From an uncultured beta proteobacterium (GTDB taxonomy: Bacteria; Pseudomonadota; Gammaproteobacteria; Burkholderiales; Rhodocyclaceae), in NCBI GenBank assembly GCA_903908065.1, contig CAIVQO010000008.1:28654-92653 (forward strand): 64,000 nucleotides of DNA. The letters are read 5' to 3'. Made by a program: the position numbers and the translations under genes. Positions 15,423-61,591 of the stretch are shown in pieces; the first letter of the stretch is position 1; each line of letters begins with the position of its first letter. A model generated the notes under the pieces. It did not search any database and was not told the origin of the DNA. It saw nothing but the letters and a program-made list of their open reading frames with translations.

Positions 15423-15441
15423 ATCGAGCCGTGGAGTACTT

Positions 15442-28323: not shown

Positions 28324-28335
28324 AATTCCGCCCAA

Positions 28336-28917
28336 ATGTCAGCAACAATCCATCCATCGGCAATCGTCGATAAAGGGGCGAACATCGGCGATGGCACCCG
28401 GGTCTGGCACTGGACTCATATCTGCGCCGGCGCCAGAATAGGCGAACGCTGCTCCTTTGGGCAGAACGTGTTTGTTGCCAACGACGTTATTGTTGGTAAC
28501 AACGTAAAAGTACAAAACAATGTAAGCATCTACGACGGCGTTGTGTTGGAAGACGATGTTTTTTGCGGTCCCAGCATGGTGTTTACCAATGTTTACAATC
28601 CTCGCTCTGCCGTGACCAGGAAAAATGAATATCGCCGCACTTTGGTCAAGCGTGGGGCGACCATCGGCGCGAATGCGACCATAGTTTGCGGCATTACCAT
28701 CGGCGAATATGCCTTTATAGCTGCGGGGGCCGTTATTAACAGGGATGTTAAGCCTTACGCGATAATGGCTGGCGTACCGGCACGGCATATCGGATGGATG
28801 AGCCAGCATGGCGATCGGCTTGAACTGCCACTAAACGGCACAGCCGAAGCAGCATGCAGCGCAACCGGAGTTCGTTACAAACTCCAGGAAGGTATTTGCT
28901 CATGTTCCGGCAAATGA
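28336..28917 (+). CDS. Hexapeptide N-acetyltransferase, WbpD/WlbB-like
   Basis: [87 protein letters not shown]. Confidence 0.92.
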
Positions 28918-30017
28918 TTCCTTTTAACGATCTTAAGGCACAGTATCAGGACCTAAAACCGCAAATACTGGAGCGGATAAACCGTGTTCTTGAACACGGC
29001 CAGTATGTCATGGGGCCAGAGGTCAATGAACTTGAGGGCAAACTCGCAGCTTTAGTCGGTACCAAACACTGCGTCACAGCCAGCAGCGGCACGGATACAC
29101 TCCTGATCGCAATGATGGCATTGGGTATCGGATTCGGTGATGAAGTTGTAACTACACCCTTCACCTTCATTGCTACCGGGGAGATGATCGCGCTACTGGG
29201 TGCCAAGCCCGTCTTCGTGGATATTGACCCGCGGACTTACAACATCGACCCCAGAAAAATAGAAAGTGCTATTACCTCCAAGACTCGCGCCATCCTGCCC
29301 GTCAGCCTCTACGGACATTGCGCAGACATGGATTCAATCAATGAGATTGCCGGCCGACATGAACTTCCAGTGATTGAAGATGGGGCCCAATCCTTTGGCT
29401 CCACCTATAAAGGGCGAAAGTCCTGTGCCCTATCCACCATTGGCTCGACAAGCTTTTTCCCGAGCAAACCTCTAGGGGGGTATGGCGATGGCGGCGCATT
29501 ATTCACTGATGATGATCAACTCGCAGAGGTTATGCGCGAAATACGTATTCACGGACAGGCTCGCCGTTACCACCATAAGAGAATCGGTATCAACGGGCGC
29601 ATGGACACTTTGCAGGCGGCGATCCTTTTGGCCAAGCTGGAACGTTTCGATTGGGAGGTGGGGCAACGTCGGGCGGTCGGTGCTGGCTATACGGCGATGT
29701 TTTCAGAACGTACACCGGACGTTGTTGTTCCTTGCATCGAGCACTGCAACACGAGCGTCTTCGCCCAATACACCATCCAGGTCGACAACCGTGATGCCAT
29801 CGCCAAGGCACTCAACGACCATGGCATCCCGACCGCCATACATTATGCGGTACCGCTCCATCTCCAGCCGGCGTTCCGCGCTTACGGCTATCGGGATGGC
29901 GACTTTCCCGTTGCCGAGGCCGTTTCCCGGCGCGTTCTGAGCTTGCCCATGGGCCCCGACCTGCTGGAACACGACCAGCGACGAATTGTCGAAGCCCTTG
30001 TTGCAGCGCTTCATTGA
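28914..30017 (+). CDS. DegT/DnrJ/EryC1/StrS aminotransferase, WbpE-like
   Basis: [70 protein letters not shown]...[23 protein letters not shown] overlap with 28917 stop. Confidence 0.93.
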
Positions 30018-30031
30018 CGGCCGTATCTGCC

Positions 30032-31090
30032 ATGCATCCCAGCACCCCGATACTTGACCGAAAGATCCGTTTTGCGCTTACTGGCTGTGGACGAATTGCA
30101 GCCAACCATTTTGCTGCGCTGGATAAGCATGCTGGCCGGGTGGAACTTGTCGGCGTTTGCGACAATGATCCTGTTGCGCTGGAGAAGGCTGTTGCGCGGA
30201 CCGGTGCACAGGGTTACCGCTCGCATAAGGAGCTGCTTGCCGCCTGCTCTGCCGACATCGTGGTACTGGCAACGCCAAGCGGGCTTCATCCAGCACAGAC
30301 GATTGCCGCAGCAGCAGCGGGCAAGCATGTCATGACAGAAAAGCCAATGGCCACCCGCTGGCAAGACGGGCTAGGTATGGTCAAGGCCTGTGACGAAGCC
30401 GGTGTGAGGCTGTTCGTAGTCAAGCAGAATCGCCGTAACGCTACCCTGCAACTGCTGAAAAAAGCGATAGACGACAAACGATTCGGGCGCATTTACTCTG
30501 TGGCCATCAATGTATTCTGGACCCGCCCGCAGGAATATTACGACTCTGCAAAATGGCGAGGAACATGGGAATTCGATGGTGGCGCCTTCATGAACCAGGC
30601 CAGCCATTACATCGATCTTCTCGATTGGCTTGTTGGTCCGATCGAAAGCGTAATGGCCTACACGAGTACCTTGGCCCGCAATATCGAAGTCGAGGATTCG
30701 GGAGTGGCCACAATTCGATGGCGCAATGGTGCACTGGGAACCGTCAACGTCACCATGCTGACTTATCCCAAGAATCTGGAAGGCTCCATAACAATTCTGG
30801 GAGAAAAAGGAACTGTGCGGATCGGCGGCGTAGCAGTAAATGAAATCCAGCACTGGGAGTTTGCCGAATCGAGCCCGGATGACGAAAGAGCCAAAGATGC
30901 CAGCTACCAGACCACCTCGGTATACGGTTTCGGGCATCCGCTGTATTATGACAATGTAATCAAGAACCTGCGCGGTGAGGCGGTTGCCGAAACGGATGGT
31001 AGAGAAGGCCTCCGGTCCCTGGAGGTCTTGATTGCCATGTACCTTTCTGCACGAGATGGACGGAAGATCAATCTTCCGCTTGATTACTGA
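30032..31090 (+). CDS. Gfo/Idh/MocA oxidoreductase, WbpB/WlbA-like (UDP-HexNAcA 3-dehydrogenase)
   Basis: IRFALTGCGRIAANHFAALDKHAGRVELVGVCDND...HVMTEKPMATRWQDGLGMVKACDEAGVRLFVVKQNRRN. Confidence 0.92.
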   Translation: MHPSTPILDRKIRFALTGCGRIAANHFAALDKHAGRVELVGVCDNDPVALEKAVARTGAQGYRSHKELLAACSADIVVLATPSGLHPAQTIAAAAAGKHVMTEKPMATRWQDGLGMVKACDEAGVRLFVVKQNRRNATLQLLKKAIDDKRFGRIYSVAINVFWTRPQEYYDSAKWRGTWEFDGGAFMNQASHYIDLLDWLVGPIESVMAYTSTLARNIEVEDSGVATIRWRNGALGTVNVTMLTYPKNLEGSITILGEKGTVRIGGVAVNEIQHWEFAESSPDDERAKDASYQTTSVYGFGHPLYYDNVIKNLRGEAVAETDGREGLRSLEVLIAMYLSARDGRKINLPLDY

Positions 31091-35298: not shown

Positions 35299-37197
35299 AT
35301 GTGCGGCATTGCAGGCTACCTCCAGTTTGACGGCGAACCCGCATCGCCGGTGCTCCTGCGCCGTATGGGCGAGGCTATCGCGCATCGCGGACCGGACGGT
35401 GAAGGCGTTTACAGCGATGGGGCCTGCGGCTTGGTGCACCGCCGGCTCGCGATCATCGACCTGTCACCGGCGGGCCACCAGCCGATGGCGACGGAGGACG
35501 GCCGCTTTGTTCTCACCTACAACGGCGAGGTCTTCAATTTTCAGGAACTGCGGATAGAACTGGAGGCGCTGGGCTGGCGGTTCCATTCGCGTACGGACAG
35601 CGAAGTCGTGCTCAAGGCCTATGCCCAGTGGGGCGAGGCTGCCGTTTCCCGCTTCAACGGACAATTTGCCGTCGCCATCTGGGACAAGGTTGCCCGCACC
35701 CTTTTCCTCGCGCGCGACCGCTACGGCATCAAACCCCTGTACTACATGCGGGACGGCTCGCGCATCGTGTTCGGCTCCGAGGTCAAGGCGATCCTGCGCC
35801 ATCCTGCCTGTCGCGCCGGGATGGATGAAGAGGGGCTGTACGAGTACCTCACCTTCCAGAATTTCTTCACCGATCGCACCTTGTTTCGCGGCGTGCGCCT
35901 CCTCCCGCCCGGCTGCTGGCTGCGCGTTGCGGAAAGCGGCACCGGCGAGACCGTGCGCTACTGGGATTTTCATTTCAGCGAACCCGAGCAACCCGAGTCG
36001 GACGAGGCCTACCGCGAGGAACTGGACCGCCTGCTGCGGCAAGCCGTCAGGCGCCAACTGGTCAGCGACGTGGAAGTGGGCGCCTATCTCAGTGGCGGCA
36101 TGGATTCGGGCACGATCACCGCGCTGGCGGCGCAGGATCTCCCCTACATGCGCTCATTTACCTGTGGCTTTGACCTGAGTTCGGCCTCGGGCATCGAGTT
36201 GGGATTCGACGAGCGGCAGAAGGCCGAGCGCATGTCCTACCTCTTCCGCACCGAACATTACGAGATGGTGCTGAAAGCCGGCGACATGGAGCGGGTGATG
36301 CCGCGCCTGGCCTGGCACATCGAGGAGCCGCGGGTAGGGCAAAGCTACCCCAACTTCTACGCCGCCCAGCTCGCCAGCAAGTTCTGCAAGGTGGTCCTGT
36401 CCGGCGAAGGCGGCGACGAACTATTCGCCGGTTATCCATGGCGCTATTACCGCGCGGTCGTAAACGATGATTTTGAGCACTATTCCGACAAGTACTTCCA
36501 GTTCTGGCAGCGGCTGTTGCCGGCGGACAGCGCTGCGGCCGTGCTTGCACCGATCTGGAACCGCGTGAAGCACGTCTCAACGCGGGATATCTTCCGCGAC
36601 GTGTTCCACGAGCATGCCCATCGCCTGACGCGCCCCGAGGACTACATCAACCACTCGCTCTACTTCGAGGCGAAGACCTTCCTGCACGGGCTGCTGGTCG
36701 TAGAGGACAAGCTTGCCATGGCTCACGGGCTGGAAATGCGGGTGCCCTTCCTCGACAACGACCTTGTCGATTTCGCCATGCGCGTCCCCGCGCACCTCAA
36801 GCTCGGCAACCTGAGCGAGGTGGTGCGCCTCAATGAAAACGAGCCCGGACCGAAGACTGCACGCTATTTCGAGAAGACGCGGGACGGCAAGCTGCTGTTG
36901 CGCCGCGTGATGGAGCGCTACGTACCCAAGGACGTGGCTGATGGCGTCAAGCAGGGCTTTTCCGCGCCCGATGCCAGCTGGTTCAGGGGCGAAAGCATTG
37001 AGTACGTGCGCCGCCGGCTGATGGGGCGCGACGCCCGGATATTCGAATACCTGGACCGGTCCGCCGTCCAGAGCATGGTCGGGGATCACCTCGAAGGGCG
37101 GGAAAACCGGCGCTTGCTCATCTGGTCGCTGCTCAATCTCGAGGAATGGCTAAACATAAGCGACACGGATGACTGGGGCGGACATGAATACCGATGA
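35299..37197 (+). CDS. asnB: Asparagine synthase (glutamine-hydrolysing) family amidotransferase, copy 1
   Basis: MCGIAGYLQFDGEPASPVLLRRMGEAIAHRGPDGEGVY...YNGEVFNFQELR...LSGGMDSGTITALA...EGGDELFAGYPW. Confidence 0.93.
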   Translation: MCGIAGYLQFDGEPASPVLLRRMGEAIAHRGPDGEGVYSDGACGLVHRRLAIIDLSPAGHQPMATEDGRFVLTYNGEVFNFQELRIELEALGWRFHSRTDSEVVLKAYAQWGEAAVSRFNGQFAVAIWDKVARTLFLARDRYGIKPLYYMRDGSRIVFGSEVKAILRHPACRAGMDEEGLYEYLTFQNFFTDRTLFRGVRLLPPGCWLRVAESGTGETVRYWDFHFSEPEQPESDEAYREELDRLLRQAVRRQLVSDVEVGAYLSGGMDSGTITALAAQDLPYMRSFTCGFDLSSASGIELGFDERQKAERMSYLFRTEHYEMVLKAGDMERVMPRLAWHIEEPRVGQSYPNFYAAQLASKFCKVVLSGEGGDELFAGYPWRYYRAVVNDDFEHYSDKYFQFWQRLLPADSAAAVLAPIWNRVKHVSTRDIFRDVFHEHAHRLTRPEDYINHSLYFEAKTFLHGLLVVEDKLAMAHGLEMRVPFLDNDLVDFAMRVPAHLKLGNLSEVVRLNENEPGPKTARYFEKTRDGKLLLRRVMERYVPKDVADGVKQGFSAPDASWFRGESIEYVRRRLMGRDARIFEYLDRSAVQSMVGDHLEGRENRRLLIWSLLNLEEWLNISDTDDWGGHEYR

Positions 37198-39551: not shown

Positions 39552-40286
39552 ATGAATCGCAACTTCTCCGACTTCACGCTTGACGCATACGCTGCCCTGC
39601 TGGAAAAGGCGGCGGCGCGATACCGTTTCGTCCGTTTCGGCGATATCTCCGCCGCCGACGGGCGCGCGCTTTGGCGGCACGATATCGATTTTTCTCCGCA
39701 CCGAGCCCTCGCCATGGCGGAACTTGAAGCCGTGCGCGGTGTGCGAGCGAGCTACTTCGTGCAGTTGACTTCACCTTTCTATAACGCGCTGGAGCCCGGG
39801 ATCAGCGCCCGCCTTCGGCGAATCGCGGCCCTTGGGCACGATATCGGCATCCACTTCGAGCCGTCCAGCGATGCATCGGAGGAGCAGTTAGCCTTCGAGG
39901 CACGTACCCTGGAAAGCGCCCTGAACGTCCCGATTCGAGTGTTTTCGCTCCACAACCCGACCACCTATGACGCGGCGCGTTTCGAGGCGGACGAGGTGGC
40001 GGGGCTGCTCAACGCCAGCGCCCCGGTCTGGCGCCACGACTTCGTCTATTGTTCGGACAGCAACGGTCTGTGGCGTTATCGTTCCCTGGTCGAGGTGATC
40101 GAGGACGCGGACAGCCGCAATATCTACGCGCTGACGCACCCTGAGTGGTGGCAGGACGTAGCGATGCCGCCACGGGAACGCATCAGGCGCTGTATTGATG
40201 GACGCGCGGAATTCTGCAGCCGATACTATGATGGGCTGCTTGAAGAGCACGGCCGGCCGAACGTAGGCCGAAAGGGCGAAAAGTGA
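39552..40286 (+). CDS. Polysaccharide deacetylase-like protein
   Basis: ALWRHDIDFSPHRALAMAELEAVRGVRASYFVQLTSPFYNALEPGISARLRRIAALGHDIGIHFEPSSD; CE4-like motifs. Confidence 0.75.
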   Translation: MNRNFSDFTLDAYAALLEKAAARYRFVRFGDISAADGRALWRHDIDFSPHRALAMAELEAVRGVRASYFVQLTSPFYNALEPGISARLRRIAALGHDIGIHFEPSSDASEEQLAFEARTLESALNVPIRVFSLHNPTTYDAARFEADEVAGLLNASAPVWRHDFVYCSDSNGLWRYRSLVEVIEDADSRNIYALTHPEWWQDVAMPPRERIRRCIDGRAEFCSRYYDGLLEEHGRPNVGRKGEK

Positions 40287-41005
40287 CCGAGCCGGGTGGG
40301 GGCCCCGTGGTGGCAGGCCATCAGCCAAATTTCCTTCCGTGGTTCGGCTACTTCGAGAAGATGCTGAAATGCGACGTTTTCGTCTATTCCGATGACGTCC
40401 AGTATCCGAAGCAGTGTTATACGAATCGGGTGGAGATGCCGGTTGGCAACGTGGCGGGATACCTCACGCTGCCTGTCAAGAAGGGGGGCGATGCACGCAT
40501 CGCCGACAAGCAGCATTTGCAGGACGAACCGACATGTACGCGGTTGATAAAGACGCTGCGCCTGAACTTCGGTGGTCTGCCCCATTTCGGCGACATCGAT
40601 CTGGTTATCGATGAATTGCAGAAGGCTTATTGGCAATTCCAAACGATTGCCGACCTCAATATCCATATGAACCGGTACCTCGCGGCGTTGATGGATATCA
40701 CAACAGTCGCCCGGCGAGGAACAGAACTGGGACTCGATGCCTTTCATCGCAACGACCGCCTTGTTCAGCGATGCCGTTTGCTGGGGTCGCGGATCTACTT
40801 GTGCGGGCAGGGCGCTGATGGTTATCAGGATGATGCATTTCTGGCCGCGTCCGGCATTGAGTTGCGACGAATAGATTACTCGATAGGGCGCTCGCTGTTC
40901 GGCGACGACCTGCGTTTTACCGTGTTGTACGGCATCGCCAAGTACGGTCTCGCTCCAATAAGAGCCGCCGTAGCCGCATACCGCAGCAGAGGCAGGCGCG
41001 CGTGA
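40283..41005 (+). CDS. WbqC family protein
   Basis: VVAGHQPNFLPWFGYFEKMLKCDVFVYSDDVQYPKQCYTNRVEMPVGNVAGYLTLPVKKG. Confidence 0.85.
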   Translation: MTEPGGGPVVAGHQPNFLPWFGYFEKMLKCDVFVYSDDVQYPKQCYTNRVEMPVGNVAGYLTLPVKKGGDARIADKQHLQDEPTCTRLIKTLRLNFGGLPHFGDIDLVIDELQKAYWQFQTIADLNIHMNRYLAALMDITTVARRGTELGLDAFHRNDRLVQRCRLLGSRIYLCGQGADGYQDDAFLAASGIELRRIDYSIGRSLFGDDLRFTVLYGIAKYGLAPIRAAVAAYRSRGRRA

Positions 41006-42192
41006 AGGTCCTCTATGTTGATGCCAACGTCTGGCACCTCAATCCGACGGCAAATCTGCAGGCGCTGCTCTTCAGGGAGCGCTTCTGCGGCACGTGTTGC
41101 TATGGGCCGGGATTTTCGAGTCGGGATGAGTTGGAGCGCGGCCTGCGTCGCTTTATCGAGGCGAGGGGGCCGTTCGATGTTTTGGTGCTTGGGCCAAATA
41201 CACCCTTCCTGGTCGACGGCGCGGATGCAATAGAAGGCGCAGTCGGATACTTGATGAAGTACACGGCGCACCGGCTTTCCGGAAACGCGCTTGTCCAATT
41301 CTTTGCCGATGTCCGCCAGTCGTTCGGGCACCTGGAAGTTCCCGTCAAGTTGGTTTCCGTATTGAACTTCGATTACTACGCGACTACACAGACGCAAATC
41401 GATCATCTCCTCGAACAAGACGTCGGGGTTCTTGGGCCGAATGAGCAGTTTTCCCTTCGGCTGGAGGATCTCCCTAGTTTCGCGACCCGTGAGAAACACT
41501 ATGTTCGCAAGGTCGAGCGCCTTTCAAATGCCTGGTATGACTTTCTGGTCCGGCATCCCGAACGCGTGGTGACGGCCGTGCACTTCGTGGCGGCCACCGA
41601 GTTCATCTTCGAACCACTGGATGCCAGGCCCTTTGACGTTGCCGTGCCGGGGGTTGAATACCAGTTGCGAAAGGAGGCCGTAAAGCGGCTTTCCGGAACC
41701 CGGTGGCGGAGTGCTTCGAAGGCCTATTTCCATTTCTACCGTCTGGCAAACCGGCTTGGTTTGCCCGTGTTTTCACATCCCGTCGCTTTGCGCCTGTACA
41801 ACCAGTTCTTCCAGCGCACACTCGCCGATACGCGCTGCGTATATACGGCGCGCGGCGGGTTCGGCATGCCCATCCGGAAATTCTTTGAAATCCCGGCTGC
41901 CGGCGCACTCGTGCTATGCAGTCCCTGTAACGGATACGCGGACCTCGGCTTCGAGGACGGTCGGCACTATATAGCAGTCGAGCCGGATGGCCTCGTGGAT
42001 GCGCTAGCCAAATGGCTGGTGGATCCTCGATCCCAGGAAATTGCCAGTGCAGGACAGGCGGTGACGATGACGAATCATTCCTTGGCGGCGCGTGGCGAGC
42101 AAATCGAACGTTGTCTTCGAGCGATGGTGGCCGGTACCTATGCCGGTTCGCGCTGGGATCGCGGCGAGTTCCGCGTGTTGGAGAAGGCCTGA
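41002..42192 (+). CDS. Glycosyltransferase-like protein (CgeB-like C-terminus)
   Basis: CVYTARGGFGMPIRKFFEIPAAGALVLCSPCNGYADLGFEDGRHYIAVEPDGLVDALAKWLVDP. Confidence 0.65.
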   Translation: MKVLYVDANVWHLNPTANLQALLFRERFCGTCCYGPGFSSRDELERGLRRFIEARGPFDVLVLGPNTPFLVDGADAIEGAVGYLMKYTAHRLSGNALVQFFADVRQSFGHLEVPVKLVSVLNFDYYATTQTQIDHLLEQDVGVLGPNEQFSLRLEDLPSFATREKHYVRKVERLSNAWYDFLVRHPERVVTAVHFVAATEFIFEPLDARPFDVAVPGVEYQLRKEAVKRLSGTRWRSASKAYFHFYRLANRLGLPVFSHPVALRLYNQFFQRTLADTRCVYTARGGFGMPIRKFFEIPAAGALVLCSPCNGYADLGFEDGRHYIAVEPDGLVDALAKWLVDPRSQEIASAGQAVTMTNHSLAARGEQIERCLRAMVAGTYAGSRWDRGEFRVLEKA

Positions 42193-44006
42193 TGTGCGGC
42201 ATCCTCGGCATAGTCAGGCCCGGCGGGGCGGATAGGGCAGAAGCCAGGGGCCTGCTCGACATGCTGGCGCATCGCGGACCCGATGCCGAGGGGTATTGGC
42301 AGAGTGCCGACGGGCGGCTGATTGTTGGTCATCGCCGGCTGAAGATCCTCGACTTGTCGGATGCTGCCAACCAGCCGATGTGTTCCCCCGACGGCCGCTT
42401 TGTCCTCGTCTATAACGGCGAAGTGGTGAACTACCGCGACCTGCGGGCGGCCTATCGGGGCCCATGGAATTTCGCCACCAACGGCGATACGGAAATGCTC
42501 CTTGCGCTGTTAGCCGAGCGTGGCACCGACGCCTTGCACGAGTGCGTCGGCATGTTCGCGTTTGCCTTGTTTGATACGAAGCTGCGACGGTTGACGCTGG
42601 TGCGCGACCGGTTTGGCATCAAACCCCTGTACGTCACGAGACTCGATGATGGCGGCCTGGCATTTGCCAGCGAGATCCCGCCGCTGCTGAAACTCCAGCG
42701 GGAAGTGCAAGCGGATCTTGACGTCATCCGCACCTATCTCGAGACGACGCTGTACGAGACGGGACGGCGCACCTTCTTTTCGGGGATCGAAAGCGTGGCC
42801 CCGGGCTCGGCTATCGAAATCGATCTCGTCAGCGGGGCGTGGATGGAAAAGCAGTGGTACAAGCTCGCCGAACATCTGCCAGACCTGTCCGATGCGAGCG
42901 AGGCGGAACTGATAGAGGAGGGAGCGCGCAGAATTGAACGGGCAATAGCGGACCACCTGATTGCCGATGTGCGTACTGGCCTGAATGTTTCAGGTGGCGT
43001 CGATTCATCGACCCTCGTCGGCGTTGCGCGCAGGCATGTCGCTGATATCCATCTGTTCACCCAGGACTACGAACCGCCCTACAGCGAGGCGGAATGGGTC
43101 AGGAAGGTGGCGGGCGAGTCTCCGCTTCATCTGGCGCAGTTGACCGAGGGCCGCATTCGCCAGGTGCTGGACAGAACCATACGCCTGCAGGCCGAGCCGT
43201 TCGGCGGGGTTACGGTTGCGGGATACGACTATTTGTACCAAGCGGCTGATCGCGCCGGCGTTACCGTGCTGCTGGACGGCAACGGCGTGGACGAAGTCTT
43301 CCTTGGGTACAAGAAATACCATGCCGCTGCCGTGCGCCTCGCCAAGGACGAGGCCGAGTGGATGTCGCTCGCCGCCGGCTATCGACATTTCTGGCAGTCC
43401 GAGCCGCCGCCACGCGGGACGGTCGATTTCCGGGGCCAGTCCATCGACGGTAGCGAAGGAGCACGGCCTGCAGCCATTACGCATGCGCTTCGTCGTGGGT
43501 CGTCGCTGTTGCCGCTGCCGGAAGTCGGGGGCAACTTTTCCGATCCGATCCGCGCCATGGCCGCGCAGGATCTGCTGGCAGCGAAGATTCCACGCGGACT
43601 GCGCTTCAACGATCGCATGTCCATGGCACGCTCCAAAGAATTGCGCGTGCCGTTTCTGGATCATCGTCTGGTCGAGTTCGGCTTTGCCGTGCCCAGTCGC
43701 TACCTTCTCGATGCCAGCGGCTCCAAGGCCCTGTTCCGGCGTATCGCCGCCCGCTGGATTCCCGGCGAAGTCGCTGCTGCAGTCAAGCGTTCGGTGCAGT
43801 CGCCGCAGCGGGAATGGCTGGCCGGCCCGTGGCGGGGCTTGGTTGAAACCACCCTTTCTTCCGATAGCCTTGCTGCGCGTGGATGGATAAACCCGGAAAT
43901 AGCACGACATCTTTATCAGGACTATCTGGTGGGCGCGAAGGGCAACTCCTTCTTTTTATGGCAGTGGCTAAATTTAGAATTGTGGGCGAGAAACTTTCTT
44001 GATTGA
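42192..44006 (+). CDS. asnB: Asparagine synthase family amidotransferase, copy 2
   Basis: MCGILGIVRPGGADRAEARGLLDMLAHRGPDAEGYW...YNGEVVNYRDLR...NVSGGVDSSTLVGVARRHVADIHLFTQDYEPPYSEAEWV; start ATG 42192 overlaps previous stop. Confidence 0.92.
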   Translation: MCGILGIVRPGGADRAEARGLLDMLAHRGPDAEGYWQSADGRLIVGHRRLKILDLSDAANQPMCSPDGRFVLVYNGEVVNYRDLRAAYRGPWNFATNGDTEMLLALLAERGTDALHECVGMFAFALFDTKLRRLTLVRDRFGIKPLYVTRLDDGGLAFASEIPPLLKLQREVQADLDVIRTYLETTLYETGRRTFFSGIESVAPGSAIEIDLVSGAWMEKQWYKLAEHLPDLSDASEAELIEEGARRIERAIADHLIADVRTGLNVSGGVDSSTLVGVARRHVADIHLFTQDYEPPYSEAEWVRKVAGESPLHLAQLTEGRIRQVLDRTIRLQAEPFGGVTVAGYDYLYQAADRAGVTVLLDGNGVDEVFLGYKKYHAAAVRLAKDEAEWMSLAAGYRHFWQSEPPPRGTVDFRGQSIDGSEGARPAAITHALRRGSSLLPLPEVGGNFSDPIRAMAAQDLLAAKIPRGLRFNDRMSMARSKELRVPFLDHRLVEFGFAVPSRYLLDASGSKALFRRIAARWIPGEVAAAVKRSVQSPQREWLAGPWRGLVETTLSSDSLAARGWINPEIARHLYQDYLVGAKGNSFFLWQWLNLELWARNFLD

Positions 44007-44019
44007 GTAGAACGAAAAC

Positions 44020-44982
44020 ATGACCAGAATTGCAGTAATCGGTGCGGGAACATTGGGAGCCCGCCATCTTCAAGCCTTGGCGCGGTTGGAAGCTCCGCTG
44101 ATCGTCGATCTGGTGGATCCTTCTATCGATGCGCAACAGAAAGCACTTTCGATATGTTCGCATGCCGGAGGGGTGCGGGGCCCGGTGAATTGTGTTTCCG
44201 AGGTGACCAGCCTCTCTGCTGTTCCCGATATCGCTATCGTTGCCACAAATTCTCGCGATCGGCTTGCGATTCTTCGAGAACTGATTAGCAGTGGTTGCCG
44301 CAAACTAATCCTCGAGAAGGTCTTATTTACAAGGCGAGAGGAATATGAGATCGCCAGCCAGATGATTCTGTCAGGAGGCGCAAAGGTGTGGGTGAATTGT
44401 GCCCGCCGTACAGCGCCCCGCTTTCATCGCCTTCAGGAATTGACTGCGGGACGCGCTATCTCATATAGAGTGGAAGGCCCGGACTGGGGGCTGGCGTGTA
44501 ACGCAATCCATCATTTGGACGAATGGATGTTCCTGAGTCGGGCGCAACAGTTCATATTGACCGGCTGCTTCGAACCGGAACTGCCTCCGGCCCGCCGGAA
44601 CGGATATTTCGAGGTACTTGGTGCTATGAGCGGTGAAGCCGGACCGCATACCTTCGAGGCGCTGAGCGTCCGTGGTCAAACTACCCGGCCAGCCGGAGAC
44701 CGAACGATTACAATCCGTTGCGAGAATACCGAGTTCGTTATCGGGCAGGTGTCGCAGGATCTCGTAGTTCGCCAAGACGGGCAGATTGTTGCCCGTGAAC
44801 CTTACCCCTTCGCGATGCAAAGCGAAGCCACCGCCTGGCATGTTGCAGCCATTCTGGCCGGAGGCGAGCCTTCCTTGCCGCGCTACGAGGAATCGGCGAA
44901 GCTCCATCTTGCCTTGCTGGACGTGCTGATGCCCCACTTTCAATCCCTGGACCCGAGTCTGACAGAATGTCCGATCACGTGA
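44020..44982 (+). CDS. Gfo/Idh/MocA-like oxidoreductase (EKV in place of EKP)
   Basis: TRIAVIGAGTLGARHLQALARLEAPLIVDLVDPSID...CRKLILEKVLFTRREEYEIASQMILSGGAKVWVNCARR. Confidence 0.78.
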   Translation: MTRIAVIGAGTLGARHLQALARLEAPLIVDLVDPSIDAQQKALSICSHAGGVRGPVNCVSEVTSLSAVPDIAIVATNSRDRLAILRELISSGCRKLILEKVLFTRREEYEIASQMILSGGAKVWVNCARRTAPRFHRLQELTAGRAISYRVEGPDWGLACNAIHHLDEWMFLSRAQQFILTGCFEPELPPARRNGYFEVLGAMSGEAGPHTFEALSVRGQTTRPAGDRTITIRCENTEFVIGQVSQDLVVRQDGQIVAREPYPFAMQSEATAWHVAAILAGGEPSLPRYEESAKLHLALLDVLMPHFQSLDPSLTECPIT

Positions 44983-45929
44983 TTCTCCTCGCCGGTGCCG
45001 GGCCGATGGCCGTTGCCCATGCCCAGGTGCTGAAGGCACTGGGCCATTCATACCTTTGTGTTGGCCGCAGCGCCGAAAGCACGCAACGCTTCAAGGCCGA
45101 AACGGGAATGACGGCCTTTGCTGGTGGCATCGAATACTGGCTCGCACAAGCGGAGAGGCCAGCGGTGACTGCCGCCGTGGTTGCCGTCAGCCTGACCGAG
45201 CTCGGCACGGTGACACGGACGCTGGTGGATGCCGGAATCAAGCGCATTCTGGTGGAAAAACCGGCAGCACTCACCCTGACGGAAATCGAGGAGTTGGACG
45301 CGGGGGCTCGCAAGGCGGGAGCGTCGATCTACCTGGCCTATAACCGGCGTTTCTACGCTGCGACCGAGGCGGCACGGCGCATGATCATGGAAGACGGCGG
45401 CGTCTCCAGCTTCTTTTTCGATTTCACCGAAATAGCTTCACGGACCGTCGTGCCGGGACGGGGGCCGGACGTTCTGAATAACTGGTTCCTGGCGAACAGC
45501 AGTCATGTCGTGGACCTGGCCTTTCATCTGGGCGGCCGGCCCAGCGTGATTGACGCACGCGTCAAAGGCAGGCTGGAATGGCACCCGGCAGGCGCGACGT
45601 TTGCCGGCAGCGGCCAGACGGAATCCGGCGCACTCTTCGCCTATCTCGCCGATTGGGCCGCGCCCGGTCGCTGGGGGGTCGAGGTTCGATCCACGAAACG
45701 GCGCTTGATCCTGCAGCCGATGGAATCCCTCAAGGTTCAGGAATTGGGGAGTTTCGCGATCACCGATGTTCCGCTCGACGATCTCGATACCCGTTTCAAA
45801 CCCGGACTATATCGACAGATGCAGTCGTTCCTGAGTGACCGTCCGGAAACTACCGCGCTACAATCCTTGCGCGAGCATGCGCGCGCGGTGCGGGAGGATT
45901 TTCTGCCGCTGATCGGGGGTGTGCGATGA
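44967..45929 (+). CDS. Gfo/Idh/MocA family oxidoreductase
   Basis: VILLAGAGPMAVAHAQVLKALGHSYLCVGRSAESTQRF...IKRILVEKPAALTLTEIEELDAGARKAGASIYLAYNRRFYAA. Confidence 0.85.
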   Translation: MSDHVILLAGAGPMAVAHAQVLKALGHSYLCVGRSAESTQRFKAETGMTAFAGGIEYWLAQAERPAVTAAVVAVSLTELGTVTRTLVDAGIKRILVEKPAALTLTEIEELDAGARKAGASIYLAYNRRFYAATEAARRMIMEDGGVSSFFFDFTEIASRTVVPGRGPDVLNNWFLANSSHVVDLAFHLGGRPSVIDARVKGRLEWHPAGATFAGSGQTESGALFAYLADWAAPGRWGVEVRSTKRRLILQPMESLKVQELGSFAITDVPLDDLDTRFKPGLYRQMQSFLSDRPETTALQSLREHARAVREDFLPLIGGVR

Positions 45930-46642
45930 GCAGCGGTCGTGTTCTGGCCATCGTTCCCGCCCGCGGCGGGTCGAAGGGCATCCCTCGAAAGAATATTGTC
46001 GACGTCTGCGGCAAGCCTCTGATCGCATGGTCCATCGCCACCGGCCGCCAATTGGTCGAGACCGGAACCGTTGCCCGTGCGGTGGTGTCGACCGACGATG
46101 TCGAGATCGCCAGGGTCGCCCGGAGCTGCGGCGGTGATGTTCCTTTCATGCGCCCGGTGGAACTGGCGACCGATCAGGCGAAGTCGATCGGCTACATATT
46201 GCACGCCCTGGACTGGTTCGCCGAGCGCGGCGAGAGCTTCGATGCCGTGTTGCTGCTGCAGCCGACATCTCCGCAACGGGATGTCGATGCCATTGCGGAT
46301 GCCATCCGGAAATTCTTTGCACAGAACGAAGCCGATTCCCTGATTTCCTGCTACCAGGAAGACTACATCAACGATCTCGTGATGTACGAGGACGAGGGCA
46401 CCGGCTATCTGAAGCCGAGGAATCCCCTGCACAACAAGGGAGTGCGTCGGCAGGAGCATGGTCCGACCATGGTGCGCAACGGCGCCGTCTATCTCACGCG
46501 CGTCGATTACCTGCGGCATACCGGGCAGCTTATCTGTGATCGGCCGATGCTCATGCGCATGAGCAAGAGGCACTCAATCGACCTAGATGTTCCGGACGAC
46601 CTGATCCTGCTAAGGAGCGCGATGTGCGGATCGGCATCCTAG
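45926..46642 (+). CDS. neuA: CMP-nonulosonate (acylneuraminate) cytidylyltransferase, NeuA/LegF-like
   Basis: VLAIVPARGGSKGIPRKNIVDVCGKPLIAWSIATGRQL...AVVSTDDVEIARVARSCGGDVPFMRPVELATDQAKS. Confidence 0.92.
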   Translation: MSSGRVLAIVPARGGSKGIPRKNIVDVCGKPLIAWSIATGRQLVETGTVARAVVSTDDVEIARVARSCGGDVPFMRPVELATDQAKSIGYILHALDWFAERGESFDAVLLLQPTSPQRDVDAIADAIRKFFAQNEADSLISCYQEDYINDLVMYEDEGTGYLKPRNPLHNKGVRRQEHGPTMVRNGAVYLTRVDYLRHTGQLICDRPMLMRMSKRHSIDLDVPDDLILLRSAMCGSAS

Positions 46643-47562
46643 AGGGAGATCACTTTTCTGCCCGGGCCAGGACGATGCTGGCGAACATAGGCCCGGTCGA
46701 GGTTTTCGATGGCGGGATGCTCGAAGCATTCCTTGCCGACAAGGAGGTGCTTTTCGTCCGGCTGGGATACAGGATCGATCGCGCCACTCTGGATCTTGCG
46801 CCGCGGCTCAAGCTGCTTTGCAGCCCCACCACCGGGCACAATCATCTGGATGAAGTCCACTTGTCATTGCGGGGGATCGAGCTGATCAGCCTGCGCGGCG
46901 AGCGTACCTTTCTGCAGTGCATACGGGCGACTCCCGAACACACCTTGGGACTGATGCTGGCCCTGCTGCGAAACTACCGGATCGCTTTCCTCGATTCAAA
47001 TCATCCTTATTGGGACCGTGACCGTTGTCGCGGCGACGAACTGTTCGGCATGAGAGTCGGAATCATTGGTCTCGGACGCGTCGGCGGGATCGTGGCGGAA
47101 TATCTTCGTGCGCTTGGCGCCCGCGTTGCCTACGTGGATATCCGGCCCGAAGTTAGTCGTGACGGCTGCGAGCGTTGTGGTTCGCTCGCGGCGCTGATCG
47201 AGGCTAGCGAGTTGGTGGTCATGTGTGCATCCTATGCCGACGGTCAGCCTCCCGTCATGGACAGGGAACTCGTTGGTTTGCTGGCCGGGAGATATTTTGT
47301 TAATACAGCGCGCGGCGAGTTGGTGGACGAGGCGGCGCTGCTTGAACTGGTAAGGCAGGAAAGCATGAAGGGCGTGGCGACTGACGTAATTGCCAACGAG
47401 AATGGGCCGAATCGGCTTGACGAATGGCTGGATGCGGCAACTGGGCGGAATGTCATCGTTACGCCCCATATCGCTGGGGCGACGTGGTCTTCCATGGCTG
47501 CCACGGAAGAGTTCATTGCACAAAAGCTCATGAAAAAACTGGAACAAGCGGCGACAAGATGA
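46624..47562 (+). CDS. D-isomer specific 2-hydroxyacid dehydrogenase family protein
   Basis: MRVGIIGLGRVGGIVAEYLRALGARVAYVDIRPE...FVNTARGELVDEAALLELVRQESMKGVATDVIANE...VIVTPHIAGATWSS; GTG start. Confidence 0.88.
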   Translation: MRIGILEGDHFSARARTMLANIGPVEVFDGGMLEAFLADKEVLFVRLGYRIDRATLDLAPRLKLLCSPTTGHNHLDEVHLSLRGIELISLRGERTFLQCIRATPEHTLGLMLALLRNYRIAFLDSNHPYWDRDRCRGDELFGMRVGIIGLGRVGGIVAEYLRALGARVAYVDIRPEVSRDGCERCGSLAALIEASELVVMCASYADGQPPVMDRELVGLLAGRYFVNTARGELVDEAALLELVRQESMKGVATDVIANENGPNRLDEWLDAATGRNVIVTPHIAGATWSSMAATEEFIAQKLMKKLEQAATR

Positions 47563-48596
47563 AAAGTGAAACATTGCGCGACACGGCAGGGGCGGGGCGG
47601 ACTTTGGTGGTGGCCGAGATCGGTCAGGGCCACGACGGCAGCGTTGGCATTCTGCATTCCATGGTGGATGTAGCGGCTGCCTGCAGGGTCGATGCGGTGA
47701 AGTTCCAGGTCCACATTGCAGACGCAGAAAGCAGCCCAATGGAGCCCTTCCGTGTTCGTTTCTCGCCGGTGGACGCAACTCGATTCGACTACTGGAAGCG
47801 AATGGAGCTGCCCGAACACGAATGGCGTCGCCTTAAGGAGCGGTGCGACACGCTGGGTGTGGAATTCCTGGCCACGCCCTTCTCCAACGCAGCGGTCGAT
47901 CTTCTGGAGCGCGTCGGCATCAGGCGCTACAAAGTTGGCTCTGGCGATATTGCTAATCCGCTCCTGCTGCAGCGTCTTGTGGCCACGGGCAAGGAGGTTA
48001 TCCTGTCGACGGGCCTCGGCACAATTGAGGATATCGACCGTGCCGTAGAATTGTTTTCGAGGCATTCAGTGCCGATTGCCGTGCTTCAATGCACGACACG
48101 CTATCCGACGGTGGCCGACGATGTGGGTTTGCCGTGGATTGGCAGGCTGAGGGAACGCTACGGTTGCCCGGTCGGACTGTCGGATCACTCGGGAAAGATA
48201 TACGCAGGACTGGCAGCGGCCGCATTGGGTGCTGCACTGGTGGAGGTCCACGTCACCTTCGACCGTCGCATGTTCGGGCCGGACAGTCGGGCATCGCTGA
48301 CCTTCGATGAACTGGCGCACCTGGTGGAAGGGGTCCGGTTTATCGAGGCAGCCCGCCGCGATACGGTCGAAAAAGTAATGACCGAAGAAACAGAGAACCT
48401 GCGGCGTATGTTCGGCAAGGCATTGGCGGTGAACCGCGAGATGGTGGCAGGCGAAACGCTCAGCACCTCTGACCTGGAAGGGAAGAAACCCGCGGATGGC
48501 GGAATTGCGGTTGGCGAACTTGAGCATGTGCTCGGCCGGTGCCTGAACCGCTCCAAACGGAAATGGGAGTTCCTGCGGAAGGAAGACTTGGAATGA
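47559..48596 (+). CDS. neuB: N-acetylneuraminate/legionaminate synthase family, NeuB-like with SAF-type C-terminus
   Basis: LVVAEIGQGHDGSVGILHSMVDVAAACRVDAVKFQVHIADAES...GVEFLATPFSNAAVDLLERVGIRRYKVGSGDIANPLLLQ...TTRYPTVADDVGL...GLSDHSGKIYAGLAAAALGAALVEVHVTFDRRMFGPD. Confidence 0.92.
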   Translation: MKSETLRDTAGAGRTLVVAEIGQGHDGSVGILHSMVDVAAACRVDAVKFQVHIADAESSPMEPFRVRFSPVDATRFDYWKRMELPEHEWRRLKERCDTLGVEFLATPFSNAAVDLLERVGIRRYKVGSGDIANPLLLQRLVATGKEVILSTGLGTIEDIDRAVELFSRHSVPIAVLQCTTRYPTVADDVGLPWIGRLRERYGCPVGLSDHSGKIYAGLAAAALGAALVEVHVTFDRRMFGPDSRASLTFDELAHLVEGVRFIEAARRDTVEKVMTEETENLRRMFGKALAVNREMVAGETLSTSDLEGKKPADGGIAVGELEHVLGRCLNRSKRKWEFLRKEDLE

Positions 48597-49735
48597 AGCG
48601 GAAGAAGATTTGTGTAGTCGTTGCCAGCCGGGCCAATTATGGTCGGGTCAAGTACCTCATGAAGGCGATCCAGGAACATTCAGACATGGAACTGCAACTG
48701 GTCGTCGGGGCTTCCACGCTGCTGGATCGGTTCGGCAAGGCGATCAGCGTAATTCGCGCCGACGGATTCGAACCTCTGCGGTCCATTCATTACGTCATCG
48801 AAGGCGAGACTCTGGCGACCCAGGCCAAATCGACGGGGCTGGGGATCGTGGAGTTGTCCACCGCTTTCGAGGACCTGGCGCCGGACTACGTGGTGACGGT
48901 CGCCGACCGCTTCGAGACCATGGCCACGGCAATAGCAGCCACGTATTTGAATATTCCCCTGGTCCACCTGCAGGGGGGCGAAGTCAGCGGCAACATCGAC
49001 GACCGTGTGCGCCACGCCATCACCAAGCTTGCCGATATCCATTTCGTTGCGTCCGAGATATCCCGCCGGCGGGTGATCGACATGGGCGAAGACCCGCAGT
49101 TCGTATTCAATTACGGCTGCCCCGCAATGGACGTCCTGGCAAAGTCTGACCTGAGCCTGGAGCCGGACGCGCTCGACCGTTATCTCGGCGTTGGCAAGCG
49201 CATCGACTGGAGCAAACCCTACATGCTGGTCATGCAGCATCCGGTGACAACAAGCTATGGCCATGGCCGCGCCGAGGTAACCGAGACGCTGATGGCGGCT
49301 GTCCGATTCAGGGACATCCAGAAGATCGTACTCTGGCCAAATGTGGATGCCGGGAGTGACGATGTTTCTCGGGGTATCAGGCACTTTCGCGAGTTTCACA
49401 TGAGTGAGCCGATCTATTACGTGAAGAATTTTTCTCCCGAAGACTATGCACGGGTGCTCAACAATGCCGTGTGCTGCGTCGGGAACTCCTCCTCGTTCAT
49501 CCGCGAAGCTGCCTTTCTCGGCGTTCCGGCGGTGATCGTAGGCGACAGGCAACAAGGGCGCGAACACGGCAACAACGTGGTCTTTGCCGATTACGACCAG
49601 AACCATATTGCCGAGCAATTGCAGGCGCAGTTGGCCCATGGCCGCCACGAACCGGATCGCCGGTTCGGCGATGGTCAGACGAGCCAACGCATTGCGGCGG
49701 AGCTGGCAACGCTGGATTTCCGCCACGGAGCCTGA
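48593..49735 (+). CDS. neuC: UDP-N-acetylglucosamine 2-epimerase (hydrolysing), NeuC/LegG-like
   Basis: KICVVVASRANYGRVKYLMKAIQEHSDMELQLVVGASTLLDRFGKAI...PLVHLQGGEVSGNIDDRVRHAITKLADIHFVAS...VGNSSSFIREAAFLGVPAVIVGDRQQGREHGNNV. Confidence 0.93.
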   Translation: MKRKKICVVVASRANYGRVKYLMKAIQEHSDMELQLVVGASTLLDRFGKAISVIRADGFEPLRSIHYVIEGETLATQAKSTGLGIVELSTAFEDLAPDYVVTVADRFETMATAIAATYLNIPLVHLQGGEVSGNIDDRVRHAITKLADIHFVASEISRRRVIDMGEDPQFVFNYGCPAMDVLAKSDLSLEPDALDRYLGVGKRIDWSKPYMLVMQHPVTTSYGHGRAEVTETLMAAVRFRDIQKIVLWPNVDAGSDDVSRGIRHFREFHMSEPIYYVKNFSPEDYARVLNNAVCCVGNSSSFIREAAFLGVPAVIVGDRQQGREHGNNVVFADYDQNHIAEQLQAQLAHGRHEPDRRFGDGQTSQRIAAELATLDFRHGA

Positions 49736-49747
49736 GCGCAAGTGGCG

Positions 49748-51229
49748 ATGAGAATTGCGTTTATTGGCAACCAGGGCGGACGCGATGTGATAGCGCTGTA
49801 CGCGGACATGGCCCGTACGCTGATTGACGAGTTCGGAGCGGAGGTACGGTTCGCCTTGTGGCTGGACAGGGAAAAGGCGATGCCGGCAGAGTGCGGTGCG
49901 CCGGAAGCCGAGGTCGAGAGCTTCGAGGAGTATGTCCGCGCTCTTCCTGTACCGAATGCCGCTGCGGTTGAGAAGTTGATTCGGAGATACCGGGACGTTT
50001 GCTGGTCTGAGGTCGTTGCCGCCGAGCGGGCATTCACCGATTACTCGATGCTGTTGGGTGCGGCAGGGGAGCGACGGGAAGGACCGGAATACGTTCAGCG
50101 ACTGGTCGTTGCGATCGTTGGCTATCTGGAGCATGAGTTGGTGGGTTGCGCAGCGGTCGTATGCCAGACGGCGGACACGCTTTTTTCCCTGGCGGTGTTC
50201 AAGGTTGCCAGCCATCTCGGCGTCCCGGCTTATGCGATTGCACCGGCCTGGTTGCTTGAACCGGAGAAGGGCGGCGGATTCCTGGCGAACAATGAATATC
50301 TCGAATGTCGGCGCATGGTGAGGTCATTCGAAAGACGCCAGGGAACCGCGCTTCTTGATGACGAGAGATCGCGCACGGATGCCTTGGTCCATTCGATTCG
50401 GGGCTTTTCCGGCAAGACCGCATTTCATGCCACGACATCCAAGGGCAAATCAGCCGGACGCAATGCCCTTACTCCCAACTGGCGCCGCTTGCTTGAGTAC
50501 CTAGTCGAAAACTCGAGGCGCGACAAGTACGTCGAGTACATTAAAATTGATCCGGCCCGCAAGATTCAAGCGAATCTCCTGCGTGCCTTCAGAAAGTTAT
50601 CTGCACGCCATACTTATGGAACACTCGACGTTGCGGGAATTCCGGAGCGCAGCGTGTTTTACGCGCTTCACTACCAGCCGGAACAGTCGACTCTGGCGCA
50701 GGGGATCTGGCACGTAAATCAGGTGGCACTCGTCGAGAATCTTTCCAAGTCCCTGCCGCTTGGCTATACGCTGGTGGTCAAGGAGCATCCTTGGGGTCGC
50801 GGAAACAGACCCCGCTGGCAGTACGATCATATGGCCGGGTTCCACAATGTGATATTTTGTGATGCGCCGGCAAAGGAGATCATTCAGCGCGTCGATGCAG
50901 TAGTTGCGGTATCGGGCACCGTGGCGATGGAAGCATTGGTATTCGACAAGCCCACGGTGATTCTTGGAAGAAACTTTTTCGAGTTCTCCGATCTGTTCTA
51001 TCGAGTGCGTGATATCCAGGACCTCCCGGATACGCTTGCGCGGATATTGATCGACGGCGACTATTCGCGTCAGACCGATCGGGAAGAAAGGCTTCATCGT
51101 TTCTTGATGGCCTATCTTGATGGCCTGATTCCCTGCTTTCCGTTGCCTGGGCAGATGGCCGAGTGGGGCCGGGCACTGGTAGAGGAGATGCGACTTGATC
51201 CGTTGCCCAACAGAGGGAGCACAAAATGA
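49748..51229 (+). CDS. Capsule polysaccharide biosynthesis-type glycosyltransferase
   Basis: [53 protein letters not shown]...[32 protein letters not shown]. Confidence 0.75.
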
Positions 51230-59644: not shown

Positions 59645-61591
59645 ATGTGCGGGATAGCCGGAGTTCTCAGTCGTGCGGCGGGAGCCCTTGCGGAAGATAT
59701 GGATTCCGTAGCGCGCTGCATGGCTGATGCGTTGCGTATGCGTGGTCCCGATGCAGGCGATGCCTGGTGTGATGTCGATGCCGGTGTGGCACTCGGCCAT
59801 CGACGTCTGGCAATTCTCGACCTTTCCCCGGCAGGCGCCCAGCCGATGCATTCGGCGAGCAGGCGCTATGTAATCGCCTACAACGGCGAGATCTACAACC
59901 ATCTCGAATTGCGCGAAGAGCTGGTTGGGTACGCCTGGCGCGGCCATTCAGATACGGAAACCATTCTTGCTGCGTTCGAAGCTTGGGGTGTTGACGCAAC
60001 TTTTCGGCGCTTGGTCGGGATGTACGCCATAGCCCTGTGGGATCGCGAAACTCGTGCGCTTATTCTCGCCCGCGATCGGGTGGGCGAAAAGCCCCTCTAC
60101 TACGGCTGGCAGGGCGATACCTTCCTGTTCGGTTCCGAACTGAAAGCACTCGCAGCGCACCCGGCCTGGCGCGCCGAAGTGGATCGCGATGCCTTGGCGC
60201 TCTTCATGCGCTACGGCTATGTGCCGCTGCCGCACTCGATCTGGCGCGGGGTGCGCAAGCTGCTGCCGGGAAGCTACCTGACAATTTCTTTTGATACGTC
60301 CCTCGGCGTGCTGCCAGCGCCGACTTTCTATTGGCGGGCACGAGATGCGGCACTCGCTGGCCTGCGCACCGATCTTGATGACCAGAGCGCGGTGGAGCAA
60401 CTGGACGGGCAGTTGCGTCGTGCCATCGCTGGACAGATGGTCGCGGACGTACCGCTAGGCGCATTTCTTTCCGGCGGGGTGGATTCCTCCACCATCGTTG
60501 CTCTGATGCAGCAGCTATCAAGCCGGCCGGTACGATCCTTCTCCGTGGGCTTCAGCGAGAGCGACTACGATGAGGCGATTCATGCCAAGACTGTCGCAGC
60601 CCATCTGGGTACCGACCATACCGAGCTCTATGTCTCCCCAGCGGACGCACTGGCCGTGGTTCCGCGCCTGCCCGAGATGTTTGACGAACCCTTCGGCGAC
60701 TCATCGCAGATTCCTACCCACCTGGTTGCAGCGATGGCCCGTGGCGACGTTACGGTCAGTCTTTCCGGTGATGGCGGCGACGAGTTATTTGGTGGATACA
60801 ATCGCTATTTTTTGGGGCGTGCGATTTGGCGCCGGATCGGACCACTGCCTCGCTCTTTGCGGGGGCTGGCCGGCCGCGGAATCGTCGCAGTGCCGCCCCG
60901 GGCCTGGGACCGGCTGGGACGCTGTTTGCCCGATCGACTGCGTCAGCCAACTCTGGGCGATCGCTTGCATAAACTGGCGGACGTAATCGATGTGGCGGAT
61001 ACCGACGAACTGTATCGCCGCCTGGTTTCGCAGCATCGCGAGTCGGCTAGCTTGGTGATTGGCGGCAGCGAGCCATCGATCTGGGCCGATCAGGAGGCCG
61101 CTGCCTTTGCCGGCCACGTCCGGGGCCGCGACTTTACCGAGCGAATGATGTTCCACGATCTCGCGGGTTACCTGGCCGACGATATCCTGACCAAGGTCGA
61201 TCGCGCGGCCATGGCCTGCAGCCTGGAGACTCGCGTTCCCATGCTCGACCATCGACTGGTGGAGTTTGCCTGGTCGCTACCATTGCACATGAAGATCCGA
61301 GACGGGCAGGGCAAGTGGCTGTTGCGCCAGGTCCTGTATCGCTATGTACCCAAGCACTTGATCGAACGACCCAAGCAGGGTTTTGGCATTCCGCTCGATT
61401 CCTGGCTGCGCGGGCCGCTGCGGGACTGGGCGGAAGCCTTGCTGGACGAACCGCGCTTGCGCGGCGAGGGCTATCTTGATGCGTCGCTGGTGCGACGCAA
61501 ATGGTCGGAACACCTCTCCGGACGGCGCAACTGGCAGCACTGGCTGTGGAATGTGCTGATGTTTCAGGCCTGGCAGGAGCGCTGGCTGTGA
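59645..61591 (+). CDS. asnB: Asparagine synthase family amidotransferase, copy 3
   Basis: MCGIAGVLSRAAGALAEDMDSVARCMADALRMRGPDAGDAW...YNGEIYNHLELREEL...FLSGGVDSSTIVALMQQLSSRPVRSFSVGFSESDYDEA...SGDGGDELFGGYNRYF. Confidence 0.94.
   Translation: MCGIAGVLSRAAGALAEDMDSVARCMADALRMRGPDAGDAWCDVDAGVALGHRRLAILDLSPAGAQPMHSASRRYVIAYNGEIYNHLELREELVGYAWRGHSDTETILAAFEAWGVDATFRRLVGMYAIALWDRETRALILARDRVGEKPLYYGWQGDTFLFGSELKALAAHPAWRAEVDRDALALFMRYGYVPLPHSIWRGVRKLLPGSYLTISFDTSLGVLPAPTFYWRARDAALAGLRTDLDDQSAVEQLDGQLRRAIAGQMVADVPLGAFLSGGVDSSTIVALMQQLSSRPVRSFSVGFSESDYDEAIHAKTVAAHLGTDHTELYVSPADALAVVPRLPEMFDEPFGDSSQIPTHLVAAMARGDVTVSLSGDGGDELFGGYNRYFLGRAIWRRIGPLPRSLRGLAGRGIVAVPPRAWDRLGRCLPDRLRQPTLGDRLHKLADVIDVADTDELYRRLVSQHRESASLVIGGSEPSIWADQEAAAFAGHVRGRDFTERMMFHDLAGYLADDILTKVDRAAMACSLETRVPMLDHRLVEFAWSLPLHMKIRDGQGKWLLRQVLYRYVPKHLIERPKQGFGIPLDSWLRGPLRDWAEALLDEPRLRGEGYLDASLVRRKWSEHLSGRRNWQHWLWNVLMFQAWQERWL

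Follow-up and report, generated by a model that had tools for sequence, protein, structure and literature searches.

A distinct group of NeuB synthases and a NeuA-linked hydroxyacid dehydrogenase in a surface-polysaccharide locus of an uncultured beta proteobacterium

Which sugar would be made by a nonulosonic acid cassette that contains three oxidoreductases, and at which step would these act? The question is raised by a locus of an uncultured beta proteobacterium of the Rhodocyclaceae (assembly GCA_903908065.1, contig CAIVQO010000008.1, positions 28,654 to 92,653; these 64,000 nucleotides are referred to below as the window), in which homologues of neuA, neuB and neuC are interleaved with genes for two Gfo/Idh-type oxidoreductases and a D-2-hydroxyacid dehydrogenase, HADH. 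The six genes, gfoA-gfoB-neuA-hadh-neuB-neuC, are all open and lie on the + strand at 44020-49735 (Table 1), within a large O-antigen-type surface-polysaccharide locus. An initial annotation, made from the DNA alone, had named these genes in agreement with their Pfam families and had described a non-canonical nonulosonic acid set, a description that is supported here; it had counted seven genes where the range holds six, and the adjoining glycosyltransferase gene would be the seventh. We estimate the chances to be about even that the cassette makes a nonulosonic acid that is edited by HADH and activated with cytidine monophosphate (CMP) for use in a surface polysaccharide.

The NeuB of the window belongs to a distinct group of nonulosonic acid synthases. 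Relatives were gathered at one genome per species with a query alignment built from the window NeuB and two relatives, and the best 80 of 511 confirmed candidates were retained; they come from Synechococcus, Prochlorococcus, Polaromonas, Comamonadaceae, Alcaligenaceae, Rhizobiales, Campylobacterota, Desulfobacterota, Nitrospiraceae, Planctomycetota and many Bacteroidota. In a FastTree comparison with 31 other NeuB proteins of the window's order and the Neisseria meningitidis (Nm) enzyme, the window NeuB and its 80 relatives (81 proteins) fell on one side of a branch with a support of 99, and on this sequence tree the group is monophyletic. Active-site residues were taken from work on the Nm enzyme (PMC6795526), which also provides the numbering. 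The unusual motif AEIGQGHDGS, to which the initial annotation had drawn attention, is a real and meaningful deviation, the canonical N29 being replaced by Ala in 80/80 relatives and by Gly in the window. In addition, N74 is replaced by Phe (a position in a variable loop, aligned with less certainty), N184 by Thr or Ser (Thr in the window) and R314 by Lys, which is fixed in all group relatives. Residues E25, K53, K129, H215, H236 and D247 are fixed across the group, with one exception. An R314K mutant of Nm-NeuB retains some activity, while R314A does not (PMC6795526). Judging from these fixed catalytic residues and from the activity of R314K, the group NeuB is very probably an active synthase that condenses phosphoenolpyruvate (PEP) and has an altered sugar pocket. 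The window protein scores below the equivalog cut-off for synthases of N-acetylneuraminic acid (Neu5Ac), with 286.1 versus 399.65 bits for TIGR03569. At locus L039 (6261-10149), the same genome also encodes another NeuB-like protein, of very divergent sequence (LELANNHWG), whose gene comes two genes downstream from that for a thiamine pyrophosphate (TPP)-dependent enzyme. A contig classed as viral in IMG/VR (L124) carries NeuB-NeuC-HADH-NeuA, with a NeuB about 50% identical to group members; this could be a genuine cassette of a phage or a piece of host DNA wrongly classed.

The genes that accompany this NeuB group also set it apart. Genes within 6 kb of NeuB were compared between the 80 group loci and 40 other NeuB loci from the window's order. 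HADH was found in 33/80 group loci and in 0/40 control loci (Fisher 1.3e-7), and AsnB in 29/80 versus 1/40 (Fisher 1.5e-5), whereas neither Gfo/Idh (18/80 versus 11/40) nor NeuA (71/80 versus 32/40) distinguished the group in this way. The oxidoreductases had been suspected of being associated with the neu genes in a non-random manner, as one unit of three; this association is upheld for HADH and not for the Gfo/Idh enzymes, and the single unit dissolves, since HADH accompanies NeuA across phyla, whereas conservation of the Gfo/Idh pair is limited to the closest relatives. A NeuB-NeuC-NeuA row is found in most group loci, with HADH, AsnB or both added in many, and some loci carry the row alone. 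Among the Polaribacter loci, L107 contains HADH, and L113 and L122 lack it. HADH directly adjoins NeuA in nearly every locus that contains it. The gene set recurs in dozens of genomes, and the full order (AsnB, Gfo/Idh, GfoB, NeuA, HADH, NeuB, NeuC, transferase) recurs in the closest loci. Because the AsnB of the window shares only about 28-35% identity with those of the Bacteroidota loci, no shared role is assumed for them. In two distant loci, a TPP-dependent acetolactate-synthase-like enzyme is encoded directly beside HADH (L033 2556-5029, L051 7428-9915), and a WbuX-type N-acetyl-sugar amidotransferase with HisH/HisF-like genes occurs in L051, L080 and L069, which suggests acetamidino variants. 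Both were dropped as system-defining parts, being too rare.

The presence of HADH follows the NeuA tree and not the NeuB or NeuC tree. For the 65 loci in which NeuA, NeuB and NeuC were all present, the changes in HADH presence or absence needed on each tree were counted and compared with shuffles. Four changes suffice on the NeuA tree, as against 15 for NeuB and 18 for NeuC (shuffle mean about 22, minimum 15-16); in the Bacteroidota-like subset (46 loci) the corresponding numbers are 3, 12 and 11 (mean about 14, minimum 9). AsnB, which is likewise often beside NeuA, shows no tree preference, with 14 changes for NeuA, 15 for NeuB and 17 for NeuC. The NeuA positions equivalent to Nm K142, N175 and F193 differ between loci with and without HADH, while those equivalent to R165, Q104 and Y179 are largely kept irrespective of it. 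In the Nm enzyme, the first three face the glyceryl chain or the N-acetyl pocket, and R165 binds the carboxylate (PMC2901514). The window NeuA, whose best solved-structure relatives are CMP-Neu5Ac synthetases, has N at the position of N175 and V at that of K142. The active-site residues of NeuB are the same in loci with and without HADH. As NeuB and NeuC are thus alike whether or not HADH is present, the dehydrogenase would most simply act downstream of NeuB and no later than NeuA.

By its fold, its NAD-binding motif and its Arg/Glu/His triad, HADH belongs to the D-2-hydroxyacid dehydrogenase family. The AlphaFold model (pLDDT 94) matches PHGDH, glyoxylate reductase and D-lactate dehydrogenase; the triad Arg230/Glu259/His282 and the motif GxGRxG...D172 are intact (conserved over 32 sequences), and group-specific stretches are found around residues 70-105. 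The protein scores far below the curated cut-offs of the characterised equivalogs PGDH, GhrA/B, PdxB, VanH and D-lactate dehydrogenase. A search seeded with HADH alone found it in only four other genomes of the 369 in the class, three of them with an adjacent NeuA. One of these three loci again resembles locus L048, and two of the three pair HADH with a different NeuB type (SHFG or AHFG, Arg314). A UDP-sulfoquinovose-synthase-like epimerase (GGDGYLGWPTA) is encoded in HADH-NeuA loci with the latter NeuB type (L248 6655-7824, L249 2342-3490), and in the HADH locus L248 a dihydrodipicolinate-synthase/aldolase-like protein (15388-16329) lies beside a second NeuA.

From the enzyme families, the following route may be proposed. 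NeuC would hydrolyse and epimerise uridine diphosphate N-acetylglucosamine (UDP-GlcNAc) to an N-acetylmannosamine (ManNAc)-type sugar, which NeuB, with its group-specific active site, would join to PEP to yield a nonulosonic acid. HADH would then change this acid or its N-acyl group before activation, a position backed by the tree test. The likeliest chemistry would be redox or epimerisation at C7-C9 of the side chain or at the N-acyl substituent, given that NeuA largely preserves its catalytic residues and those that bind the carboxylate, but differs in residues of its glyceryl/N-acetyl pocket between loci with and without HADH. GfoA and GfoB may contribute further tailoring in the window lineage, such as the reduction step of an epimerisation; NeuA would add CMP, and the glycosyltransferase GT495 would then transfer the sugar. 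Taken literally, HADH might act on a portion of the sugar acid, or on a 2-oxo acid that is later attached as a substituent. Reduction of C2 of the free sugar by HADH was set aside: the carboxylate, metal and nucleophile-site residues of NeuA are kept in most sequences.

Several points weigh against editing by HADH between NeuB and NeuA. Only about four independent gains or losses lie behind the NeuA-HADH link, and the principal residue contrast in NeuA comes largely from a single clade; since the two genes are also adjacent, they may possibly have been co-transferred without sharing a substrate. Some NeuA proteins from loci without HADH retain N175, and a free nonulosonic acid offers no obvious literal 2-hydroxyacid substrate. 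Moreover, the control loci came from the window's order only, whereas the group spans phyla, and the HADH queries were drawn from the group's own loci, so that the contrast could be inflated a little. As for the Gfo/Idh enzymes, gene position is the sole argument for their role.

Alternatively, HADH may reduce a 2-oxo acid to a D-2-hydroxy acid (lactate, glycerate, malate or 2-hydroxyglutarate) destined to become a substituent, N-acyl or other, of the nonulosonic acid or of a neighbouring sugar. The closest folds, which include PHGDH and Ser33 with 2-hydroxyglutarate besides glyoxylate reductase and D-lactate dehydrogenase, would fit such a function, and polysaccharides of marine and fish-pathogenic bacteria are known to bear malic acid and, beside a nonulosonic acid, R-2-hydroxyglutaric acid (PMC3210612). 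N-acyl exchange is suggested by two genes, for a formyltransferase-like protein and a polysaccharide deacetylase, that are found in four of the closest loci (L043, L045, L047, L050) and in the more distant L033. However, HADH has no consistently linked partner for activating or transferring acyl groups, and a generic acid supplier would have no reason to follow NeuA rather than a transferase; we consider this explanation unlikely. A second possibility, which appears similarly improbable, is that NeuC, NeuB and NeuA make plain CMP-Neu5Ac, while HADH and Gfo/Idh work on different sugars made by the locus or are simply carried along with NeuA through linked transfer. NeuC indeed passes its curated cut-off and resembles human GNE near the catalytic loop (GGEVSGxIDDxxRHAITKL), the R314K mutant of Nm-NeuB is still active (PMC6795526), some group loci hold the three core genes only, and Gfo/Idh is also found near canonical NeuB; against this stand the NeuB score below the Neu5Ac-synthase cut-off, the invariance of Lys314 among the group relatives and the specific enrichment of HADH and AsnB with this NeuB group. 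The option favoured by the initial annotation, that the dehydrogenases act upstream to make an unusual hexosamine condensed by NeuB, is very unlikely: the altered sugar-contact positions of NeuB and the oxidised GlcNAc derivatives suggested by wbp-type genes at 27007-31090 of the same locus would agree with it, but the NeuB active site is indifferent to HADH, which follows neither the NeuB nor the NeuC tree.

The cassette falls within the known field of nonulosonic acid biosynthesis, as a variant of it. The CMP-Neu5Ac route shares the three families NeuC, NeuB and NeuA, but lacks the R314K, N29G/A and N74F replacements of NeuB and the linked HADH, AsnB and Gfo/Idh. The legionaminic acid pathway (LegB-C-H-G-I-F, with a Bacillus subtilis sps variant, PMC7439481) also has NeuB-, NeuC- and NeuA-type enzymes; however, as the initial annotation had surmised from the genes at hand, LegB and LegC are missing by curated cut-off, their best scores in the whole genome being 130.2 versus 475 and 279.2 versus 420 bits, and LegB exceeds the cut-off in only 1/25 genomes of the NeuB group. 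For pseudaminic acid, PseI (190.3 versus 340.25 bits) and PseF (122.1 versus 205.7) also stay below. By curated sequence cut-offs, the set is thus neither the legionaminic nor the pseudaminic pathway and, by that for NeuB, not plain Neu5Ac synthesis, although its product may still be Neu5Ac. A parallel is provided by EpaA, a cytidylyltransferase-reductase fusion, and EpaB, a short-chain dehydrogenase/reductase (SDR), which epimerise pseudaminic acid at C8 (PMC12053666, where AciE is named for 8-epiacinetaminic acid). In that case, oxidoreductases that go with a cytidylyltransferase do edit a nonulosonic acid, as is proposed here; but the Epa pair consists of an aldo-keto reductase and an SDR, whereas the cassette proteins match 2-Hacid_dh and, in one lineage, Gfo/Idh. 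Some canonical NeuB loci also hold Gfo/Idh and WbuX near NeuA. WbpS-type uronamide amidotransferases (PMC7468200) are likewise AsnB-like enzymes of polysaccharide loci; unlike them, the AsnB proteins of the window are TIGR01536 matches that do not reach the eps_aminotran_1 cut-off. In the literature covered, which leaves out most subscription journals, we found no description of nonulosonic acid or neuB with a hydroxyacid or phosphoglycerate dehydrogenase, an asparagine synthase or an oxidoreductase, nor is the gene set described in the passages covered of papers on Leptospira, Vibrionaceae and Herbaspirillum.

Both GfoA and GfoB have a Rossmann domain above the Pfam cut-off, as expected of Gfo/Idh/MocA proteins; GfoB has the catalytic Lys in EKP, and GfoA deviates with EKV. 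GfoB is encoded upstream of neuA in 9/10 of the closest loci (40-51% identity), and GfoA has relatives of 46% and 39% identity in L049 and L052. No close solved structure was found for GfoA, and the predicted structure of GfoB is poor (pLDDT 72), its fold search pointing to the general Gfo/Idh family only. The two could act as a reductive partner in the window lineage.

The cassette genes are tightly packed, as had been noted initially: ATGA overlaps join gfoB/neuA (45926), hadh/neuB (47559) and neuB/neuC (48593), and the gfoA/gfoB and neuA/hadh junctions overlap by 16-19 nucleotides. On account of the ATGA overlaps, the true starts of NeuB and NeuC are most likely 47559 and 48593. At the left end of the window, a housekeeping-like block recognised by eye (thiC-like, efflux, pcm-like and tolC-like genes) precedes the O-antigen-type locus. 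The gene content points to a betaproteobacterium as the probable source. The G+C content of the cassette (59.6%) is lower than that of this block (65.1%), and genomes of the same genus contain no close NeuB (best about 34-36% identity); the cassette was therefore probably acquired from elsewhere. Plasmid and phage collections yielded no close relative, all NeuB matches being below 60% identity (best listed about 37-38% for plasmids and 33% for phages), and HADH had no match in the plasmid collection at 1e-20. Several of the closest loci retain the upstream genes for the WRHDID protein, WbqC and Glyco_trans_1_2. Relatives of GT495 (23-68% identity) come after neuC in the closest loci, or after neuB where the order differs, making it a candidate user of the CMP-sugar. 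A CDP-sugar gene set also lies downstream of the cassette. Elsewhere in the locus, a wbpA-D-E-B-like set at 27007-31090 (UDP-GlcNAc 6-dehydrogenase, acetyltransferase, DegT, Gfo/Idh) is likely to serve a UDP-GlcNAc3NAcA-type (oxidised, 3-amino GlcNAc) sugar, and three AsnB-like amidotransferase genes are present (35299-37197, 42192-44006, 59645-61591).

Table 1. Genes of the cassette and its immediate surroundings (window coordinates)
Gene product	Position	Strand	Assignment	Match or remark
WRHDID protein	39552-40286	+	Deacetylase-like	Polysaccharide-deacetylase likeness by eye; no Pfam match
WbqC	40283-41005	+	WbqC family	
Glyco_trans_1_2	41002-42192	+	CgeB-type glycosyltransferase	
AsnB	42192-44006	+	AsnB-like glutamine amidotransferase	Directly upstream of cassette; TIGR01536 328.8 bits (cut-off 267.1); below eps_aminotran_1 cut-off
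GfoA	44020-44982	+	Gfo/Idh-type oxidoreductase, EKV replacing EKP	PF01408 GFO_IDH_MocA 33.5 bits (cut-off 24)
GfoB	44967-45929	+	Gfo/Idh oxidoreductase; motifs EKP, YNRRFY, NSxHVxD	PF01408 34.3 bits (cut-off 24)
NeuA	45926-46642	+	CMP-nonulosonic-acid synthetase, HADH-associated type	CTP_transf_3 57.3 bits (cut-off 22.6)
HADH	46624-47562	+	D-2-hydroxyacid dehydrogenase subfamily	2-Hacid_dh_C PF02826 113.9 bits (cut-off 25.1)
NeuB	47559-48596	+	Nonulosonic acid synthase of distinct group	Pfam NeuB 224.6 bits (cut-off 22.1)
NeuC	48593-49735	+	Hydrolysing UDP-GlcNAc 2-epimerase type	Epimerase_2 217.8 bits (cut-off 30.6); TIGR03568 365.9 bits (cut-off 235.9)
GT495	49742-51229 (approx.)	+	Capsule_synth-type glycosyltransferase	PF05159 24.4 bits

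It is tempting to speculate, although we would place the chances somewhat below even, that these loci represent an undescribed class of nonulosonic acids in several phyla, defined by the distinct NeuB group and by dedicated editing by HADH just before the addition of CMP; modules with NeuA-HADH or NeuA only would be swapped on an unchanged NeuB-NeuC core, so that related bacteria would switch between two surface sugars. If HADH does edit the sugar before activation, this would constitute an oxidoreductase route unlike that of the aldo-keto reductase/SDR pair of Acinetobacter. Nonulosonic acid structures are predicted from genomes by way of the NeuB sequence type (as applied in PMC8053191), and members of the present group would be called 'N-acetylneuraminate synthase' despite their altered sugar-contact residues and their specific dehydrogenase partner. 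Many of the 'sialic acid' calls in environmental bacteria may accordingly be wrong.

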